This document shows positions 49,610-59,134 of a stretch of 64,000 bases of DNA, piece by piece. The translations under genes were made by a program, and so were the position numbers. Position 1 is the stretch's first letter. Each line of letters starts with the position of its first letter. Source of the DNA: Euzebya pacifica (GTDB taxonomy: Bacteria; Actinomycetota; Nitriliruptoria; Euzebyales; Euzebyaceae). The DNA lies in contig NZ_CP031165.1 of NCBI RefSeq assembly GCF_003344865.1, positions 4,593,910 through 4,657,909 of the forward strand, read 5' to 3'. The notes beneath the pieces are model-generated. The model was not told the origin of the DNA, did no database searches, and worked only from the letters and a program-made list of their open reading frames with translations.

Positions 49610-50257
49610 TCAGCGGCTGAGTGAGTCCACGACGTCGTCGGTGATCACGGCCGTGCCACCGACGACCTTGAGGCCCTCGGCGTGACGGCCGAGCCAGTCG
49701 GTGGTGACGGGAGCTCCACCGGGGTTCCTGCCGTCGATCAGCACCAACGGCGAACCGCTGCGCGCTGCCGCCGGGCCCGCCGCGAGCGCGTCGGGGAAGT
49801 CCAGGCCGGTCGCGACCCACACGTCGGCGTCGTCGAGACCTGACTCGCGGGCGACATCGGCAACCGCGGCGCTGGTCGCGTAACGGGTGTCACCCGAGAT
49901 CCGGACCAGCTCGGCGTCGGCCAGCTCCGCGGCTTCTTCGGCAACGCTGTCGCGGATGGCGGCGGTACCACCGATCACGATGACCTCGTCCGGGCGGTAC
50001 TCCGTCAGGAGGTCGGCAACCGCGTCGGGCAGCCTGTCGCCCTCCGTCAGCAGGACCGGGGCGTGGTCGTGGGCGGCGAGGGCGCTGGCGGACAAGGCAT
50101 CCGGCCACGCCCGGCTGGCGTCCTCGGCGTCACCGAGCGCCAGGTAGACCCTGCCGATGCGCGCGGGGTCCTCATAGGACGCGATGTCCTCGGCGACCAC
50201 CGCGCTGAGGTCGTATCGGTCGTCGGCCTCCAGGCGGGCCCGGAAGCGGACGCCGAT
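49610..50257 (-). pseudogene. CWB2-repeat protein, 5'-truncated
   Basis: The frame to 50200 (196 residues from a GTG) and in-frame codons up to about 50257 encode the end of a cell-wall-binding type 2 protein: DDRYDLSAVVAEDIASY, APVLLTEGDRLPDAVADLL, EVIVIGGTAAIRDSVAEE, LVRISGDTRYATSAAVADVA, LKVVGGTAVITDDVV. There is no signal peptide and no proper gene start. The first repeat begins in its middle, exactly where IS30 transposase sequence of the opposite strand begins. The protein would not be exported as it stands. Confidence 0.8.
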
Positions 50258-50661
50258 CAGAGCGCTCCACGCGCTACGTGATGCTGATGCACCTCGATGG
50301 CGACCGGACCGCCGCGACGGTGCGCGATGCCATGACCACCGCGATCACTGGGCTGCCCGAGCACCTGCGGCGGTCCATCACCTGGGACCAGGGCATCGAG
50401 ATGGCCGAGCACGTCCAGTTCACCATCGACACCGACGTGCCCGTCTACTTCTGCGACCCCCACTCGCCCTGGCAACGCGGTTCCAACGAGAACACCAACG
50501 GGTTGCTGCGCCAGTACATGCCCAAGGGCACCGACCTGTCAGTCCACACCCCAGCGGACCTCAACGACTTCGCCGAGAGCCTCAACACCCGCCCCCGACA
50601 AACCCTCGGCTGGAAGACCCCAGCCGCCCAACTCGCCCAACTTGTTGCACCCACCGGTTGA
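50258..50661 (+). pseudogene. IS30-family transposase, C-terminal fragment
   Basis: The frame (ERSTRYVMLMHLDGDRTA ... ITWDQGIEMAEHVQFTIDTD, FCDPHSPWQRGSNENTNGLL, LGWKTPAAQLAQL) is the last 130 or so residues of an IS30-type DDE transposase with the second Asp and the Glu of the core. The N-terminal HTH and first Asp are missing. It abuts the broken CWB2 gene head to head. CTTGTTG (50641-50647) and CAACAAG (50662-50668) form a hairpin over the stop codon. Confidence 0.85.
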
Positions 50662-50765: not shown

Positions 50766-50815
50766 AAAAGATCGGCGGCCCGCCGTGCCGGGGGGGAGGA
50801 CACGGTGGGCCGCCG
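50766..50815 (-). terminator. Strong Rho-independent terminator of the PspA operon
   Basis: A 15-bp stem (50773-50787 with 50801-50815, one G-T pair) is followed on the minus strand by ATCTTTTTGTGT. Orientation suits transcription arriving from pspA. Confidence 0.85.
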
Positions 50816-50819
50816 GATG

Positions 50820-50910
50820 TCTGACTATAGCCGGACCACTAGCACTTCTGCCACTGAATAGCATTCATTTCTTGACAAATTACAAGTAACTGTGGTATTG
50901 GAACCGGTCA
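50820..50910. other. AT-rich island with a TTGACA-type promoter candidate
   Basis: In 50851-50900 only 17 of 50 bases are G or C, far below the surroundings. On the plus strand TTGACA (50872-50877) and TATTGG (50896-50901) are 18 bases apart and would read antisense into pspA. No gene is seen. It may be a scar of inserted DNA or a regulatory 3' region. Confidence 0.5.
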
Positions 50911-50921
50911 ACGGCAACCGA

Positions 50922-51701
50922 TCAGGCAGTTTCGCCCGATTCGACCTGGGGTTCGGCGGCCGGCGCGGCCTCGCTGGCACCGTCGAGGCCCAGCTGCGAG
51001 CGGATCTCCGACAGGCGTGCCTGCGCCTCGGTGTTGAGCGCGGCCTGCTCGATCTCGAGCATGCGTCCCTCGATCGATTCGCCCTGCAGCTCCTGCGTCC
51101 CCTTCGCCTGCGCGTAGCGCCTCTCGATCTTGTCACGCACCTCGTCGAAGGACGGCGTGTCCTGCCCGACCTGCTCCGACAGCGACGCCATCGCGGAGTT
51201 CATCTGCTCCTGCATCTTGGCCTGGTCGAGCTGCCCCATGAGCTGCTGGCGCTCGGCCAGCTTCTTCTGCAGGGCGGTGGAGTTCTGCTGCACGGCGGAC
51301 TTGGCCTGGTCGGCGGCCTGGGCGGACTGCAGCGACAGCGCCTTGAGGTTCTCGACCTCGTGCTCGATGGAGATCAACCGGTTGGCGAAGGACTCCGCCG
51401 CGGCGGTGTACTCCTGCGCCTTCTTGGCGTCCCCCTTCTTGGTGGCGTCCTCGGCCATGAGCACGGCCTGTCGAGCGGACCTGGTGACCTTCTCCAGCTC
51501 CTCCATCGACCGGTTCAGGCGCATCTCGGTCTGCTTCTGGTTGGCGATCACGTTGGCCGCCTGCTCCTTCAGCTTCCGGTGCTGCTCCTGGGCCTCGAGG
51601 ATCGCCTGCTCGAGCTGGACCTTCGGATCGGCGGCCTCGTTGAACTTCCCCGTGAACAGCGCCACGAGGTAGTTCCAGGACCTCTTGATCAGCTTGAACA
51701 T
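50922..51701 (-). CDS. pspA: PspA/IM30-family membrane-stress protein
   Basis: The 259 residues begin MFKLIKRSWNYLVALFTGKF, an amphipathic start. Long coiled coils follow (LEQAILEAQEQHRKLKEQAA, RLNRSMEELEKVTRSARQAV, LKALSLQSAQAADQAK), then a tail with IEGRMLEIEQAALNTEAQAR. PspA/Vipp1 proteins are ESCRT-III relatives that polymerise on damaged membranes and help keep the proton gradient. Last gene of a five-gene set; the preceding membrane coiled-coil gene ends at the base before its start codon. A strong terminator lies downstream. Confidence 0.93.
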   Translation of the reverse strand: MFKLIKRSWNYLVALFTGKFNEAADPKVQLEQAILEAQEQHRKLKEQAANVIANQKQTEMRLNRSMEELEKVTRSARQAVLMAEDATKKGDAKKAQEYTAAAESFANRLISIEHEVENLKALSLQSAQAADQAKSAVQQNSTALQKKLAERQQLMGQLDQAKMQEQMNSAMASLSEQVGQDTPSFDEVRDKIERRYAQAKGTQELQGESIEGRMLEIEQAALNTEAQARLSEIRSQLGLDGASEAAPAAEPQVESGETA

Positions 51702-52466
51702 CTATGCAACTCCCATCTGGGCGGTTCCACCGCCGGTGTCTTCCAGCGCCACTCTCAGCGCTTCCATTTCTCCAACGAGGCTGTCGACATCGGAGTCGAG
51801 CCCCGAGAGCTGGCCGGAGTCTCCGGACAGCGACAACTCGACCGCACGGGCCACGGCTTCGTCAAGGCGGGCATCGAGCAGGCGCAGGCGTTCGGCGGCT
51901 TGCTGGGTCACGGCCTCGAGCCGGCGGACCGTCGCGACCTGGGACTCCAGCGCCTCGACGCGCTTGAGGTTGGCGTCGCTCGCGTGGCGCTGTGCTTCCT
52001 GCCGTGCCATCGCGAGGCTGCGTTCGGCCTGGCTGGTGTTCAGCTGGTGCAGCCCGTCCTGGAGCGCCTGGCCCCGCTGCGCGATGCGCCAGGACTCTCG
52101 GACGCCGTCCTGGATGCGGTCGCCGATGACGGTCAACCGGTCCTTGAGCGGCCCCGAGCGCGCCGAGGCGAGGACCTTGTCGTAACGCGCCTTCGCGAAC
52201 TGTGTCTCCAGGACGTACTCGCGCCACGGCGAGCGCAGCGCCCGCGGGTTGATCTCGTCGCCCTTGCCCCGACGCGGGACGGCGGCAGCGACTCGGCCCG
52301 CGTAGGCCCCGATGCCAACGACTGCGCCGATGATGGGGCCACCCAGGAGGATGCCCGCCGCCGCGGCACCGCCGAGCAGCAGGATCGACGAGGGCGCGGT
52401 GATCGCCCGGGCAACGCCCGGGGTGAGGAACCGATCCCTCAGCGACTGGTCCTCGATGGCCGTCAT
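51702..52466 (-). CDS. PspA-associated membrane coiled-coil protein, unknown function
   Basis: The 254 residues start MTAIEDQSLRDRFLTPGVAR. A hydrophobic Gly/Ala-rich hairpin (ITAPSSILLLGGAAAAGILL and GGPIIGAVVGIGAYAGRVAA) would span the membrane. The rest is helical and polar with coiled-coil character (ALQDGLHQLNTSQAERSLAM, QEAQRHASDANLKRVEALES). No family is recognised. It ends directly at the pspA start, so the two are translated together; a membrane anchor or partner for PspA is the simplest inference. Confidence 0.75.
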   Translation of the reverse strand: MTAIEDQSLRDRFLTPGVARAITAPSSILLLGGAAAAGILLGGPIIGAVVGIGAYAGRVAAAVPRRGKGDEINPRALRSPWREYVLETQFAKARYDKVLASARSGPLKDRLTVIGDRIQDGVRESWRIAQRGQALQDGLHQLNTSQAERSLAMARQEAQRHASDANLKRVEALESQVATVRRLEAVTQQAAERLRLLDARLDEAVARAVELSLSGDSGQLSGLDSDVDSLVGEMEALRVALEDTGGGTAQMGVA

Positions 52467-52541
52467 CGGCGCGGAGCCTAGCGGGTCATGGGGGTGTTGG
52501 ACATCAGTGGTTCTCCGTAGGGGCCGCTCGTGGTCCGACCG

Positions 52542-54389
52542 TCAGAAGTTGGAGATCACCGCGGTGAATACCTGGTCGATCGAACGCGGATCCGATGCGT
52601 CGTAGCTCGTGGCGTTGGTCGCAACGGCGATCTGCTCGAGCACGTTGAAGTCGGCGTCCCGGCCGTAGCCGATCGGGAACACGCGGACCTGTGCGGCGGT
52701 CTCGCCGCGGGCCTGCTCCTCCAGGAAGGTCAGGAGGCCGCCGAGGTCGGAGTTGCGGGGATCGTCGTTGACACCGTCGGTCAGCAGCACGACCGCGTTG
52801 ATGCGGGTCGGGTCGTAGACCTCGACGATGTCGGCGAAGCTGTCACGGGTCACGGTGTACAGGGGCGTGCCGGCGACCGGGAACAGCCCAGCGAGGGCTT
52901 GCTGCAGCGCCTGCTCGTTCTGGCGGACCGGCCCGAGGGGGACGACGTCGAGGTAGTCCAGGGGTTGCCCGTCGTCCGCGATCGCGATGTCGGTGGAGAA
53001 CGTGCGCAGCCCGACGATGTCGTCGTCGATGAACTGCTCCAGCGCCGTCGTCGCCGCCCGGGTGGCCAGGTCCAGCTTGGTCTCGCGGGACCCGTCGTCG
53101 GAGGCGAAGTCAGCCATCGACCCCGAGACGTCCAGGACCAGCAGCACCTGCGCAGCCTTGCGGGTTCGGCCCCACTGGTCGATCAGGTCCACGAGGACAC
53201 CCGGATCGGGCACTTCCAGCGTGGTGGTCGGCTGGGCCGGGTCGACGCCGTTCTCGGCGATGATCGGGTCAGCGATCGGCACCTCGATGTTGCCCGGACG
53301 GAACCCGAACTCCAGCACGCGTTCCTGGTTCTCGGGGCGCTGCACGAAGTCGGTGAAGACCCGGGCCGCCGCGACCTCGTCGGCGTCGACCCACTCGGCG
53401 TCCTCCAGCACGAAGAACGGGTTGTCGCTGAACAGCGTCCCCTCCTCCGGGTAGATCGCGACCAGCGGGATCCGTGGCGGCACGACCTCCTCGCCGGGTT
53501 CGATGACGCCGTCGGGGTTGCCCCGGTTGTAGTTGATGAGGCTGACCTCCTCGATGGCAACCGCCGAGGCGTAGGTCAGCGCCGTCCCTCTGACGTCGTT
53601 GCGGTACCAGTTGTTGAGGAAGGTGAGGGTGGTGTCGCCGTAGTGCACGACGGCGCTCTCGATGGTGCGGGCGTTCTCGACCACGTCCGCCCGAGAGATG
53701 TCCTCACCCGTCAACCCGCGGGTCTTGCCGGCCAGGGCGTAGTACTGGGCGATCAGCGCGGCCAGGCCCGAGGTGGAGAAGTTGGGGTTGGTCTTGCCCA
53801 GGCGGAACGGCCCCCACTCGGGGTGGCCGAAGGCGGCCCAGCCCTCGGGGTTCTGGCTGAGCTCGAGCAGGTCGTTCCAGCCGATGGGTTCCTCGGGGTA
53901 CCCCAGCGCCTCGGCCATCGGCTCGGGCATGGCGATGACCAGCGGGGTCAACATGAACGGCTCGAAGTCGGTCGGGGCGATCGGCGCCTGCCCGGCGTCG
54001 ATGAGCTGCTGGTTGAGCACGCCGCCCCACGCGGACCCGGCCGGTGACCAGATGACCGGTCGCGGCCCCTCGAGTTCCTCGTCCCAGCCCTCGGCCAGCA
54101 AGGTGGCCGCGCTGCCCGAGGCCTTGCGCAGCGGACGGACGAAGATGCACTGGCCGTCGACCTCCTCGCCAGCGTCGTTGAACTCCCGCGCGAGGTCGTT
54201 CATCAGGTCGATCTTCTCGCTCGACACCGCGATGTCCACGGTGACGCAGTCGCCCGGGTCGGTGTCGGTGAACTCGCCCTCGGCGGCGGTGTCGGTTCCG
54301 GGGTCGTCACCGTCCCCGCCCGGGATGCAGGCCGCGGCCAGCAGCGACAGCACCAGCAGCGCTGCGGCAAGGTTGGCTCGACGTGACAT
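52542..54389 (-). CDS. Lipoprotein with substrate-binding and von Willebrand A domains
   Basis: The 615 residues start at ATG 54389. The lipoprotein signal ends LLAAACIPGG. A type 2 periplasmic-binding-like region occupies about 40-380 (VDIAVSSEKIDLMNDLAREF, GPRPVIWSPAGSAWGG, LTPLVIAMPEPMAEALGYPE). A VWA domain follows from about 410: MIDAS motif VLLVLDVSGSMAD, later VGLRTFSTDIAIADDG, AGTPLYTV and AVVLLTDGVNDDP. The fusion suggests an exported sensor-adhesion protein that binds a ligand and a metal-dependent partner. It lies in the PspA set, 75 bp before the coiled-coil gene. Confidence 0.88.
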   Translation of the reverse strand: MSRRANLAAALLVLSLLAAACIPGGDGDDPGTDTAAEGEFTDTDPGDCVTVDIAVSSEKIDLMNDLAREFNDAGEEVDGQCIFVRPLRKASGSAATLLAEGWDEELEGPRPVIWSPAGSAWGGVLNQQLIDAGQAPIAPTDFEPFMLTPLVIAMPEPMAEALGYPEEPIGWNDLLELSQNPEGWAAFGHPEWGPFRLGKTNPNFSTSGLAALIAQYYALAGKTRGLTGEDISRADVVENARTIESAVVHYGDTTLTFLNNWYRNDVRGTALTYASAVAIEEVSLINYNRGNPDGVIEPGEEVVPPRIPLVAIYPEEGTLFSDNPFFVLEDAEWVDADEVAAARVFTDFVQRPENQERVLEFGFRPGNIEVPIADPIIAENGVDPAQPTTTLEVPDPGVLVDLIDQWGRTRKAAQVLLVLDVSGSMADFASDDGSRETKLDLATRAATTALEQFIDDDIVGLRTFSTDIAIADDGQPLDYLDVVPLGPVRQNEQALQQALAGLFPVAGTPLYTVTRDSFADIVEVYDPTRINAVVLLTDGVNDDPRNSDLGGLLTFLEEQARGETAAQVRVFPIGYGRDADFNVLEQIAVATNATSYDASDPRSIDQVFTAVISNF

Positions 54390-54427
54390 GGTGTACCCCT
54401 TCGCGGATCGCGCCCCTCGACGCATGA

Positions 54428-55387
54428 CTACTGTCCCCATCGTTGCCGAAGGGCGATCAGGACTCCACCCGAGGGCAGTCCGTCGTCGCCCCCGAGCGCC
54501 GGGCCGCCCTCCGAGGACGCCCCGTCCGGGCCCCGCCATCCGGCGTCGCGGAGCTGCGCCCCCACCTGCTCGCCGACGTCGGCGGCATCACCGTGGTCGG
54601 TGTCGCCCACGGCGACCGCCACGACCGACAACGACCCGATGGGCTCGGGATACAGGATGACCGGGACGTTCTGGGCGGCACGGGCAGTGACGTCCAGCGC
54701 CTCGGCCTCCGTGACGACCGCGCTGTCGTTCTGCGAGCCGGCGAAGCGGATGATGTTCTCCACGCCGGACGGGCTGATCGTGCTCTCGCGCTGGACGGCG
54801 TCGAGCCAGCCGATGAACCCTCCGGTGGAGAAGCCGGTCAGGTTGAACGGCGCGCCCGCGTCATTGAAGTAGCCCCCGGCCAGCGCGGCCAGGCCGGTGA
54901 TGCCCGCGGTGTCGGTGGACGGGTCGGCGAACGCCGGCCGCAGGTCACCGGCGGTGACCAGCGTCGAGGCGCAGGTCCAGGTGGTCCCGCAGGCGGTGAC
55001 GTCGGCATCGCGCCCGGCGGCCACGACCAGCACGATGGGCGTGGTGGCCACGGTGGGACGTTCCTCGGACAGGGTTGCGCTGCTGCGCCCCGACTCCTCG
55101 ATCATCTGCACCACGATCGCCGGCGCGACCAGCACGTCGTGGGGCACCTCGGGGATGCTGAAGGCCTCGACCAGGTCCGCGCTGTCCCGTCGCACCGACC
55201 CGGCGGGGCAGGCGTCGCCGAGCAGCTCGTCGCACACGACGTCCAGCCCGGTCGCGGGCTCCTCGGCGACATCGTCGACCTGGGTGGCACCGCCGGTGTC
55301 ATCGGTCGGGGCGATGAACTCCGTGCGCACGAACCACGCGCCGCCGATCAGGGCGACCGCGGCCAGGACCGCAAGGACTTGCTTCAT
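54428..55387 (-). CDS. Membrane-anchored binding-protein-like protein
   Basis: The 319 residues start at ATG 55387 with one N-terminal hydrophobic segment (VLAVLAAVALIGGAWFVRTE), serving as a signal anchor. The rest resembles the binding-protein half of the next gene: a short strand region (TPIVLVVAAGRDADV), an aromatic hinge, and FAGSQNDSAVVTEAEALDV. Two pairs of Cys (VVCDELLGDACPAG, ACGTTWTCAS) may form disulphides. No ABC permease or ATPase is nearby, so solute uptake is unlikely. It sits between the AAA+ and VWA genes, which have the same direction. Confidence 0.7.
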   Translation of the reverse strand: MKQVLAVLAAVALIGGAWFVRTEFIAPTDDTGGATQVDDVAEEPATGLDVVCDELLGDACPAGSVRRDSADLVEAFSIPEVPHDVLVAPAIVVQMIEESGRSSATLSEERPTVATTPIVLVVAAGRDADVTACGTTWTCASTLVTAGDLRPAFADPSTDTAGITGLAALAGGYFNDAGAPFNLTGFSTGGFIGWLDAVQRESTISPSGVENIIRFAGSQNDSAVVTEAEALDVTARAAQNVPVILYPEPIGSLSVVAVAVGDTDHGDAADVGEQVGAQLRDAGWRGPDGASSEGGPALGGDDGLPSGGVLIALRQRWGQ

Positions 55388-55400
55388 CGACGGCGCCCCA

Positions 55401-56840
55401 TCAGGAGGTCACGATCCGCTCGGGCAGGTCCTCGGGCGTCAGCGTGGCGAGGTCATCGGCCGACGGGTCCTCCAGCGCCACCACCCGGGTGGCGTGCAGC
55501 TGCACGGATTCCTCGAAGACGTTGCGCGCCAGCCGGCCGTTGCCGAATCCGCGGTCGCGGGGGACATCGTCGAGCAGCTCGCCGAGCCGGACCTTGGCCT
55601 CGTCATCGAAGCGATAGTCCGATCCTCCCGAGATCAGCTCGGCGATCCGCACGAGCTCCTCGGTGGTGTAGTCGGGGAAGTGGATCGTCTGCGGGAAGCG
55701 CGACCGCAGGCCCGGGTTGGACGACATCAGCTCGGCCATCTCGTCGGTGTAGCCGGCCATGATGACGACGGTGTCGTCGCGGCGGTCCTCCACGAGCTTG
55801 ACGATGGCGTCCACGGCTTCCCGACCGAAGTCCTTCTCCCCACCCCGCACCAACGAGTACGCCTCGTCGATCAGCAGGATGCCGCCGCGGGCGGAGTCGA
55901 AGACCTTCACGACGTTGGTGGCCGTCTGGCCCACGAACCCGGCGACCAGGCCCGAGCGGTCGGTCTCGACCAGGTGCCCCTTGGGCACGACCTCCAGGGT
56001 CCGGTAGATCTGGGCGAGCAGCCGGGCCACGGTCGTCTTTCCCGTCCCGGGGTTGCCGGTGAAGACCAGGTGGTGGCTCTGGTCCCCGACCTTCAGGCCC
56101 TTCTCGGCCCGTAGCTTCTGGACCTGCAGCAGGTTGGTGACCAGCTTCACCTCCCGCTTCACCGCGTCGAGGCCGACCAGCCCGTCGAGCTCCTCCAGCA
56201 GCTCCTCCAACGGGCGGATCGGTGGCAGCTCGACCTCGACGGCCACGTCCTCCTCGACCGCCTCGGCCGCCTTGGCGCCGGCCGGTGTCCCGGTGGCAGG
56301 GTCGGACCCCGTGGACGCGGGCGGGGGGCGTCGGGTGCCACGGGGTAGGCCTGCGGCGCTGATGGAGCCCAGCAGGGTGCGGCGGAAGCGTTCTATGGCC
56401 TCGAGCTCGGCGTGCTGGGTCACGCTGTCGAGCGCAGCCACGTGGTGGGCCAGCCGGAGCGCGTGGACGTAGTAGGTCCACGCGTGGTTCGTGCCCCTGG
56501 CCTTGTCGGCCACGATGAGCGTGTCGAACATCAACGATGCGCCGTCGATGAAGCTGCGCTTGCCCGCGATCAGCCCGGTGGCGCGGATGTCAGCCGGCGT
56601 GGCGTGGTGGATGTGGGTGTCCATGAGCCCGCTGAAGGCACCGATGAGCGCCCACAGCTCCTCGTCGGTGTGGGTGCCGTCGGCGTCGACGAACGCGCTG
56701 ACGATCTCGTAGGCCTCGGCAACCACATCCGCCCGCGGCTCGGCGCTGCCGAGCTCGGTCAGGGCAGGGGTGACCCCGTCGACGAAGTCACGGACGGGGA
56801 CGCGCAGGGAATCACTCACGGGTTCAACAGTCTGCCCCAT
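55401..56840 (-). CDS. AAA+ ATPase, CbbX/SpoVK-like, with helical N-terminal region
   Basis: The 479 residues start at ATG 56840. An N-terminal helical domain (about 1-150: IVSAFVDADGTHTDEELWAL, HAWTYYVHALRLAHHVAALD) and a Pro/Ala-rich linker precede a CbbX-type AAA+ module: LDGLVGLDAVKREVKLVTNL, Walker A FTGNPGTGKTTVARLLAQIY, pore-like ETDRSGLVAGFVGQTA, Walker B GGILLIDEAYSLVRGG, sensor VVIMAGYTDEMAELMSSNPG, Arg finger GLRSRFPQTI, and C-terminal DRGFGNGRLARNVFEESV. CbbX/SpoVK-like chaperones remodel protein complexes. First gene of the PspA set; it may load or disassemble PspA polymers or the VWA protein, which is inference. Confidence 0.92.
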   Translation of the reverse strand: MGQTVEPVSDSLRVPVRDFVDGVTPALTELGSAEPRADVVAEAYEIVSAFVDADGTHTDEELWALIGAFSGLMDTHIHHATPADIRATGLIAGKRSFIDGASLMFDTLIVADKARGTNHAWTYYVHALRLAHHVAALDSVTQHAELEAIERFRRTLLGSISAAGLPRGTRRPPPASTGSDPATGTPAGAKAAEAVEEDVAVEVELPPIRPLEELLEELDGLVGLDAVKREVKLVTNLLQVQKLRAEKGLKVGDQSHHLVFTGNPGTGKTTVARLLAQIYRTLEVVPKGHLVETDRSGLVAGFVGQTATNVVKVFDSARGGILLIDEAYSLVRGGEKDFGREAVDAIVKLVEDRRDDTVVIMAGYTDEMAELMSSNPGLRSRFPQTIHFPDYTTEELVRIAELISGGSDYRFDDEAKVRLGELLDDVPRDRGFGNGRLARNVFEESVQLHATRVVALEDPSADDLATLTPEDLPERIVTS

Positions 56841-57079: not shown

Positions 57080-59134
57080 ATGAGCCTGCGGGTCACCCGC
57101 AGGGAACGGGCCTGGGGTCCGCAACTCCTGCCGGCCATCGTGGGGGGCGTGGTCGCGGCCGGTGTGCTGGCGTGCGTTCATGCCGCTGTCGTGGGTGCCA
57201 ACGAGGGTTGGATGCCCAACGCCCCCTGGCTTGCTGCCGTGCTCTTCGCGAGCATGGTCATCGCTGAGGTACGTCCCCTGCAGACGATTCGTGCCGGCGA
57301 CGACAGCATCATCACGGTCTCGCTGGCCTACTCCTGCGCGCTCGTGTTCGTGCTGCCGGGATTCGGCGCGACGCTGGCCGTGGCCGCCGGCACCCTGTTC
57401 GCCGACGTGGTCAACCGGGCGGCACCCCAGAAAGCGGCCTTCAACACCGCGATGATGGCGCTGTCCATCCACCTCGGCACCTTCGTGCTGCGTGCTGGCG
57501 GGGCGCAGGACCTCGTGGCGGCGGACCCACGGGATCCAATGCTCCTCGTGACGCTGCTGATGGCGTTCGTGGTGATCTACTCCGCGGCCACGATCCTGGT
57601 GGCGTTGGTGCTGTCCGCGGTGGAGGAGGACTCACCGATCGCGGTCCTGCGCCGGGACTTCTTCTCCACGCTGCCCAGCGACGGGATGTTGCTCCCCCTC
57701 GGCCCGGTGCTCGTCGTCGTCGGCATCCACGATCCCGTCCTGCTCCCGCTGGCCATGGTCCTGACCGCCGTCGTGCACACCTCGACACGGATCTCCACCG
57801 AGCGCGAGCGGGACGCGACCGAGGATTCGCTGACGGGACTCCTGAACCGCCGCGCCCTGGAGCAGGAGGCTGAAGCGGGGCTGGACCGGGCCGCCCGCTC
57901 GGGCCGCCGTGTGGTCGTCCTCCTGATGGACCTCAACAGGTTCAAGGTCATCAACGACACCTGGGGCCACCACGCAGGCGACGAGGTCATCGTCGAGATC
58001 GCGCGTCGGCTGCGGGACCGAATGCCCACCGCTGCCCTCGTCGCACGCCTCGGCGGCGACGAGTTCGCGGTCGTCCTCGTCGATGCCTCCTCCGAGGCCG
58101 CCGTCGAGATGGCCGAGGTTGCGTCGGAGGTGTTCGTCGACCCGGTCGAGGTCGACGCCACCGATGGGGTGGCGCTGGAGGTGACCGGTGCCATCGGTGT
58201 GGCCACCAGCGGGCCCGGGTGGTCGCGCTTCGGCGAGCTGACACGCGCTGCCGACGCCGCCATGTACGCGGGCAAGCGCCGTGGGCTGCCCTACCTGCTC
58301 GCCGACCCCGACAGCAGTGACGGTCACCACATCCAGGCGCTGGAACGGGCCATCGACAGCGACGAGATGCACATGGACTTCCAGCCGCTCGTCGACGCCC
58401 GCACCGAAGCGGTCATGGGGTTCGAGACGCTGGCGAGGTGGAACCACCCGCAGCACGGGCCGATCCCGCCGTGGGAGTTCGTCCGTGACCTCGAGGCCAC
58501 CGGTGTCCTCATGGGACGGTTCACCGAGCGGGTCCTGCGCGACGCGGTCACGATGGTCCGGCGCCTTCACGACAACGGGCACCCGGTCTCCATCAGCGTC
58601 AACGTGTCCCCGTTGAACCTTGCCGACCCGGACTTCGTGGACACGGTCCTCGGCACGCTGGATCGTCACGCCATCGAGAGCCGTTGGCTGGTGCTGGAGA
58701 TCACCGAGACCGCGTTGATGTCGAACCTCCCGGCCTGCCGTCGGGCACTGCGCCGTCTGGTCGACAGCGGGGTGGGGGTTTCGCTGGACGACTTCGGTTC
58801 GGGCCACTCCTCGTTGGCGATGATCAAGGACATCCCGTTGACCGAACTCAAGATCGACCGGTCCTTCGTCACCAACACCGACGACGAGCGTGGGGTGGCG
58901 CTGCTGCGAACGCTCGTCGACCTCGCGCGCATCCACGGGCTCAGGTCGATCGCGGAGGGCGTGGAGGACCGGGCGACCCTGCACGCCCTGGCGGAGATCG
59001 GTTTCGACCAGGTGCAGGGCTACGGCATCGGTCGTCCGCTCGGCGCCGACGAAACCCTCGCGTGGATGTCCGGACGGGCATCGTTGGACCCCAGCGGCCT
59101 GCACGGCATGGACCGCATCGTCCTCGAGCAGTGA
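57080..59134 (+). CDS. Membrane GGDEF-EAL protein, copy 3
   Basis: The 684 residues begin MSLRVTRRERAWGPQLLPAI. Six or seven membrane helices fill the first 240 residues, including AAVLFASMVIAEVRPLQTIR. GGDEF domain: DSLTGLLNRRALEQEAEAGL and intact RLGGDEFAVVLVD. EAL domain: GFETLARWNHPQHGPIPPWE (EAL changed to ETL, first Glu kept), SINVSPLNLADPDF-like SVNVSPLNL, LDDFGSGHSSLAMIKDIPL and LRSIAEGVEDRATLHAL. The membrane part resembles that of copy 4 (60783). Both activities are possible; the A-to-T change seldom abolishes activity. Confidence 0.93.
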   Translation: MSLRVTRRERAWGPQLLPAIVGGVVAAGVLACVHAAVVGANEGWMPNAPWLAAVLFASMVIAEVRPLQTIRAGDDSIITVSLAYSCALVFVLPGFGATLAVAAGTLFADVVNRAAPQKAAFNTAMMALSIHLGTFVLRAGGAQDLVAADPRDPMLLVTLLMAFVVIYSAATILVALVLSAVEEDSPIAVLRRDFFSTLPSDGMLLPLGPVLVVVGIHDPVLLPLAMVLTAVVHTSTRISTERERDATEDSLTGLLNRRALEQEAEAGLDRAARSGRRVVVLLMDLNRFKVINDTWGHHAGDEVIVEIARRLRDRMPTAALVARLGGDEFAVVLVDASSEAAVEMAEVASEVFVDPVEVDATDGVALEVTGAIGVATSGPGWSRFGELTRAADAAMYAGKRRGLPYLLADPDSSDGHHIQALERAIDSDEMHMDFQPLVDARTEAVMGFETLARWNHPQHGPIPPWEFVRDLEATGVLMGRFTERVLRDAVTMVRRLHDNGHPVSISVNVSPLNLADPDFVDTVLGTLDRHAIESRWLVLEITETALMSNLPACRRALRRLVDSGVGVSLDDFGSGHSSLAMIKDIPLTELKIDRSFVTNTDDERGVALLRTLVDLARIHGLRSIAEGVEDRATLHALAEIGFDQVQGYGIGRPLGADETLAWMSGRASLDPSGLHGMDRIVLEQ

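Follow-up and report, generated by a model that had tools for sequence, protein, structure and literature searches.

Do five adjacent genes that bring together an AAA+ ATPase, two exported binding-fold proteins, a membrane coiled-coil protein and PspA make up an envelope-stress system in the actinobacterium Euzebya pacifica? We addressed this question in a 64,000-nucleotide stretch of its genome (hereafter the window; positions 4593910-4657909 of contig 1, NZ_CP031165.1, in a two-contig genome of 6.37 Mb), for which an original prediction, made from the sequence, had proposed such a system. All five open reading frames were located on the minus strand, where the prediction had placed them. They encode the AAA+ ATPase (55401..56840, 479 aa), the membrane-anchored binding-fold protein SBP (54428..55387, 319 aa), the lipoprotein SBP-VWA, which fuses a binding fold to a VWA domain (52542..54389, 615 aa), the coiled-coil protein CC (51702..52466, 254 aa) and PspA, a member of the bacterial ESCRT-III superfamily (50922..51701, 259 aa). 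The intergenic gaps are exactly 13, 38, 75 and 0 bp when the SBP-VWA gene is taken to start at the ATG at 54389, which precedes a lipobox whose last residue is the invariant Cys22. An intrinsic terminator on the same strand (50773..50815), consisting of a 16-pair hairpin followed by TTTTT, lies 3' of pspA, with a minimum free energy of -40.4 kcal/mol and a z-score of -5.2 against shuffles, and a search inside the five-gene unit gave no terminator-like site on the minus strand. The GC content at third codon positions of the five genes is 0.86-0.95. The composition, strand, spacing and strong terminator were thus all reproduced, and the five-gene observation is real.

The same gene order recurs well beyond this genome. 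When neighbourhoods were gathered from SBP-VWA and CC homologues and annotated with profiles of the five families, the order AAA-SBP-SBPVWA-CC-PspA proved to be conserved in Nitriliruptoria and Acidimicrobiia as well as in other families of the Actinomycetota, and its recurrence across families indicates that it is beyond chance. The full order on one strand is present without MurJ in 12 other genomes, some of them with inserted genes (L033, L034, L035, L037, L038, L039, L040, L051, L052, L053, L064 and G026, the last split over two contigs), and on five contigs with MurJ between CC and PspA (L054 and L085-L088). The lowest identities to the window proteins within this order are approximately 48% for the AAA+ ATPase and CC, 27% for SBP and 62% for SBP-VWA. 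Reduced forms were also observed: AAA-CC-MurJ-PspA (L089-L091, of which L091 retains an SBP remnant), CC-MurJ-PspA (L056-L063 and L092) and SBPVWA-CC-PspA with SBPVWA and CC duplicated (L095). The locus L122:7181-10383 follows the same order with SBP-VWA, a CC-like protein that has diverged very far and a PspA that is only distantly related, and it is possibly an older branch of the system. With each genome counted once, and with CC and PspA either adjacent or separated only by MurJ, CC is a membrane protein encoded next to PspA or one gene off in 33 loci, and it is therefore a candidate partner of PspA. In broad draws of Actinomycetota genomes, in which the relatives of the window are over-represented, CC is encoded by 21 of 396 genomes and PspA by 131 of 296, 18 of 296 have the N-terminal domain of the AAA+ ATPase, and a CC scan of an 85,000-species collection returned matches only in Actinomycetota. 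The linkage in relatives on which the prediction depended is therefore present, and the neighbourhood search that it had proposed with CC as bait recovered the gene order across Actinomycetota families.

Two genes that accompany this cassette have a place in the cell envelope. In Acidimicrobiia-type loci, CC and PspA are separated by a gene for the lipid II flippase MurJ (PF03023, E 1e-66 to 1e-86); this arrangement occurs in 17 loci (L054, L056-L063 and L085-L092), and in four genomes (G188, G324, G208 and G169) the cassette MurJ is the sole strong MurJ. The Nitriliruptoria cassettes are without MurJ, which is encoded elsewhere in those genomes. A gene for a secreted M23 peptidase follows pspA directly in four genomes (L033-L035 and L037), with CWB2 repeats in the genus of the window. 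The window itself keeps only the CWB2 end of such a gene (49610..50258, minus strand; CW_binding_2, 90.7% identity to residues 386-600 of the L033 protein) beside a plus-strand transposase fragment with an rve integrase core (50278..50661; PF00665, under its cut-off), and its M23-CWB2 gene, the truncated neighbour of this fragment, looks disrupted by insertion. The linkage of MurJ and M23 genes to the cassette independently supports a role in the upkeep of the envelope. The reading that we favour, with moderate confidence, is that the cassette represents a phylum-restricted variant of the phage shock protein (PSP) system for membrane upkeep at wall-building sites, in which CC would tether PspA and the AAA+ ATPase would remodel the resulting complex. 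The same wall genes also suit a different explanation, according to which wall growth is mainly the work of MurJ (in the loci that have it), the M23 peptidase and SBP/SBP-VWA, a wall precursor or its phosphate group is the ligand of the SBP folds, and PspA and CC only stabilize the membrane at the growth site. It agrees with this explanation that four genomes have their only strong MurJ inside the cassette and that the M23 peptidase lies downstream in Nitriliruptoria, and PspA is single in 14 of the 15 genomes checked and so may be a housekeeping protein; however, the Nitriliruptoria cassettes contain no MurJ, and the genomes with CC-MurJ-PspA only have neither exported protein at the locus. 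We consider this explanation doubtful.

Many Acidimicrobiia-type loci, with either the cassette or CC-MurJ-PspA, are in addition flanked by a divergent pair of a MoxR AAA+ gene and a CoxE-type VWA gene (L085, L086, L089-L092, L056, L059-L063 and L192).

The AAA+ ATPase of the cassette carries the Pfam domains AAA and AAA_lid_6, and no signal peptide was seen on it. Its Walker A (GNPGTGKT), Walker B (LLIDEA) and NPGLxSRF motifs are invariant across nine orthologues, and the AAA+ module matches the solved structure of CbbX (3syk, E 1.7e-74). The original prediction had called this protein CbbX-type. It is indeed closest to SpoVK, CbbX and EccA, with which it shares the AAA+ module and lid over approximately 260 residues, but its scores, no more than roughly half to 70% of their curated cut-offs, pass none of the three equivalog thresholds: 223.7 bits against 459.25 for CbbX (TIGR02880), 298.9 against 422.95 for SpoVK (TIGR02881) and 229 against 466.65 for EccA of type VII secretion (TIGR03922). 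It further differs from these families in its N-terminal part (approximately residues 1-160), a conserved helical domain that is absent from the prediction, was modelled with a pLDDT of 91.4 and has no Pfam match, MIT included, at E values up to 10. A TerB-like identity of this domain, prompted by ADGxxTDxEL motifs, was rejected, as Pfam gave no match and the solved matches were all of low Z; membership of a defence system was likewise rejected, as the PADLOC matches to the ATPase were generic P-loop matches and the remaining ones marginal coiled-coil matches. A divergent GGDEF-EAL gene (57080-59134) shares its upstream region with the AAA gene, and a similar gene adjoins the cassette in L033.

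Both exported proteins have a binding fold. SBP matches SBP_bac_11 at 25.8 bits, just over the Pfam cut-off of 25, and has a membrane anchor at its N terminus and four cysteines that are invariant among its orthologues, which occupy the same position down to approximately 27% identity. SBP-VWA combines SBP_bac_11 with VWA in Pfam, is a predicted lipoprotein by its lipobox and Cys22, and retains 62-76% identity beyond the closest species. Its MIDAS ligands, D421, S423 and S425 of the DxSxS motif (421-425) together with T509 and D539, are invariant in nine sequences; the adhesion attributed to this domain in the prediction goes further than the evidence, which stops at the intact MIDAS. As had been predicted, no ABC permease or ATPase gene is present among the five genes, and none belongs to the recurring gene set of the relatives. 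SBP-VWA homologues without a nearby PspA were also found in other actinobacteria (L042-L048 and L120-L125, except L122), in unrelated neighbourhoods. The neighbouring AAA+ and VWA genes, and the true MoxR/CoxE-VWA pair beside many Acidimicrobiia copies, might suggest a MoxR-VWA-like pair that matures or metal-loads a protein, with PspA present incidentally. However, the VWA domain resides on an exported lipoprotein and the AAA+ ATPase lacks a signal peptide, so the two should not meet, and the ATPase is of the CbbX/SpoVK/EccA type rather than of the MoxR type; this explanation is therefore most improbable.

PspA itself was identified with a PspA_IM30 score of 107.9 bits (Pfam cut-off 33.9) and is the sole copy in this genome. 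No PSP regulator of the PspF, ClgR or LiaRS type is encoded among the five genes, and such a regulator is not universal in PSP systems. CC matches no Pfam family and no NCBIfam model, including the PspM model NF047839 (cut-off 80 bits), and a profile comparison of CC with PspA gave no similarity. It contains a hydrophobic hairpin near its N terminus (approximately residues 25-62), and the Arg/Lys-rich exit of this hairpin suggests a topology with both termini in the cytoplasm. From approximately residue 70 onward, helices were modelled with confidence, and the helical domain mostly has a pLDDT above 90. CC as a second ESCRT-III protein or a BAR-like protein was rejected, as all Foldseek E values exceeded 0.01 and the VIA matches, which mixed BAR proteins with designed bundles and other helical proteins, stayed within the range usual for helical bundles.

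The closest known arrangement is the mycobacterial ClgR-PspA-PspM(-PspN) system, which, like the cassette, is actinobacterial, has a PspA of the same group and encodes a helical membrane protein of approximately 260 aa with two transmembrane segments next to PspA. CC and PspM are alike in size, in the hairpin in their N-terminal part and in their pspA neighbour. Unlike the cassette, the mycobacterial system lacks the AAA+ ATPase, SBP, SBP-VWA and MurJ and has the ClgR regulator, and PspM is encoded downstream of pspA, whereas CC is encoded upstream. PspM (NF047839) adjoins PspA in f29 and f57 genomes, and a search with the PspM model at E values up to 1 returned only low scores outside these two; the true PspM proteins of L172 and L187 score 237.6 and 179.7 bits. 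In the PspA tree, the PspM-type PspAs, represented by these two loci with ClgR and PspM, pair as sisters with the PspA of L095, a SBPVWA-CC-PspA locus (99/99), and lie inside a mostly cassette-bearing group (100/100), apart from the other sampled actinobacterial PspAs. Monophyly of 24 cassette PspAs was rejected (p 0.018) with a set that omitted L095, L192 and L193, which fall among the 24; in cleaner tests of nested against sister placement of the PspM-type PspAs, neither was rejected (p-AU 0.39 and 0.23), and the cassette group could either contain these proteins or be their sister. When CC was aligned to PspM with hhalign, the score was 36 (probability 43%), against at most 18 for shuffled PspM, yet CC against reversed CC reached 35; with another alignment the score was 32 (probability 22%). 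These profile comparisons are at most suggestive of CC-PspM homology. Given that PspM-type PspA groups with cassette PspA, CC may be the counterpart of PspM, and the mycobacterial PSP system may have descended from a cassette of this type.

Several observations weigh against the membrane-upkeep reading. Two adjacent opposite-strand PRC-barrel genes part SBP-VWA from CC in two species of the same genus as the window (G002 and G003; L034:9687-10660 and L035:11049-12049), and in the g20 genomes, which represent one genus, an opposite-strand Ser/Thr kinase-PQQ propeller gene, whose product is a possible regulator, lies between AAA and SBP (L039:5855-8167 and L040:6064-8349; also L041 and L097). 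These insertions indicate that a single transcript is dispensable. Three genomes, G015, G025 and G046, have the AAA gene on its own; it is apart from pspA in the first two, and no PspA was detected by a search of the third. As such AAA genes have no pspA nearby, the ATPase may act on another substrate. In addition, the solved matches to the model of its N-terminal domain are all of low Z (best 5.6) and none is convincing, the CC model has no convincing solved match, and the CC-PspM profile similarity is weak and spans the C-terminal 70 residues. A common wall-biogenesis neighbourhood could carry PspA without a joint mechanism. Furthermore, a subtilase-like gene, assigned by eye from the sequence, lies between SBP-VWA and CC in G006, and part of the Acidimicrobiaceae retain CC-MurJ-PspA only. 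Taken together, the insertions and the lone AAA genes define CC-PspA as the core, SBP/SBP-VWA as a second block and the AAA gene as a frequent but separable partner. To describe the five genes as a complete system in one unit, as the prediction did, was too strong in view of the opposite-strand splits, the lone AAA genes and the reduced loci of the Acidimicrobiaceae. It could even be that the AAA gene, the SBP/SBP-VWA block and CC-(MurJ)-PspA are sub-modules of a neighbourhood that genome structure or shared regulation has joined without one mechanism, which would account for the three lone AAA genes, the SBP-VWA homologues without a nearby PspA, the CC-MurJ-PspA loci without the rest and the position of the insertions at module borders. 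However, order and strand are constant across families despite identities down to 27%, and the f27 genomes lost SBP/SBP-VWA at the locus yet kept AAA-CC-MurJ-PspA, and we regard this alternative as rather unlikely.

For the favoured PSP variant, we infer as follows how the parts interact, in which direction they signal, what is bound on the outside and what the ATPase acts on. PspA would form an ESCRT-III-type polymer bound to the membrane, and CC, with its membrane hairpin and cytoplasmic helical domain, would tether or seed this polymer, by analogy with mycobacterial PspM. On the outside, SBP and the SBP-VWA lipoprotein would bind an envelope ligand or a protein partner and report or dock the site, feeding no transporter. 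The AAA+ ATPase would remodel the cytoplasmic PspA/CC assembly and thereby bring about subunit turnover, and MurJ and the M23 peptidase, where present, would couple the export of lipid II and the remodelling of the wall to the module. A bolder version holds that the ATPase is a bacterial equivalent of Vps4 for PspA, with an N-terminal domain that recognizes PspA or the CC adaptor and drives turnover under the control of SBP/SBP-VWA, and that mycobacterial PspA-PspM descended from the cassette by reduction. As in ESCRT-III with Vps4, a polymer protein of the ESCRT-III superfamily is here linked to an AAA+ ATPase, but the cassette protein belongs to a different AAA+ family and has no MIT domain that Pfam could find. 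What makes a Vps4-like role attractive is that the ATPase for bacterial ESCRT-III is an open question (PMC11746142), it being unclear whether PspF acts in a Vps4-like manner or Vipp1 has an equivalent ATPase (PMC8281802); nevertheless, we judge this version improbable.

Operons that join PspA/Snf7 proteins to AAA+ ATPases, some of which also contain ABC genes and encode a PBPB-OmpA protein, are known from Ravi et al. 2024 (PMC11237479), and as far as the main-text passages of that survey go, they resemble the cassette in combining PspA with an AAA+ protein and, in some cases, an exported binding-fold protein. Their AAA+ proteins, as described there, have two AAA domains with an inactive N-terminal one, unlike the cassette ATPase, and the longer operons include an ABC ATPase and permease, whereas VWA, a CbbX-type AAA+ protein, CC and MurJ go unmentioned in those passages. 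The same passages call it unknown by what means PspA homologues control their assembly when no AAA ATPase is linked to them. Two large PSP surveys (PMC11237479 and PMC9239133) cover many contexts, none of which, in the main-text passages searched, has a CbbX-type AAA+ protein, SBP-VWA, CC or MurJ, and a literature search that combined PspA, CbbX, SpoVK, VWA, SBP and MurJ, with most subscription papers and bioRxiv outside its coverage, found no description of the cassette. In agreement with the prediction, the five-gene set is apparently undescribed so far.

The AAA+ ATPase of the cassette is a concrete candidate for an ATPase that might turn over bacterial ESCRT-III proteins. The joining of PspA with MurJ and a wall peptidase links membrane repair to peptidoglycan export, and the cassette is a possible ancestral context of the mycobacterial PspA-PspM system.

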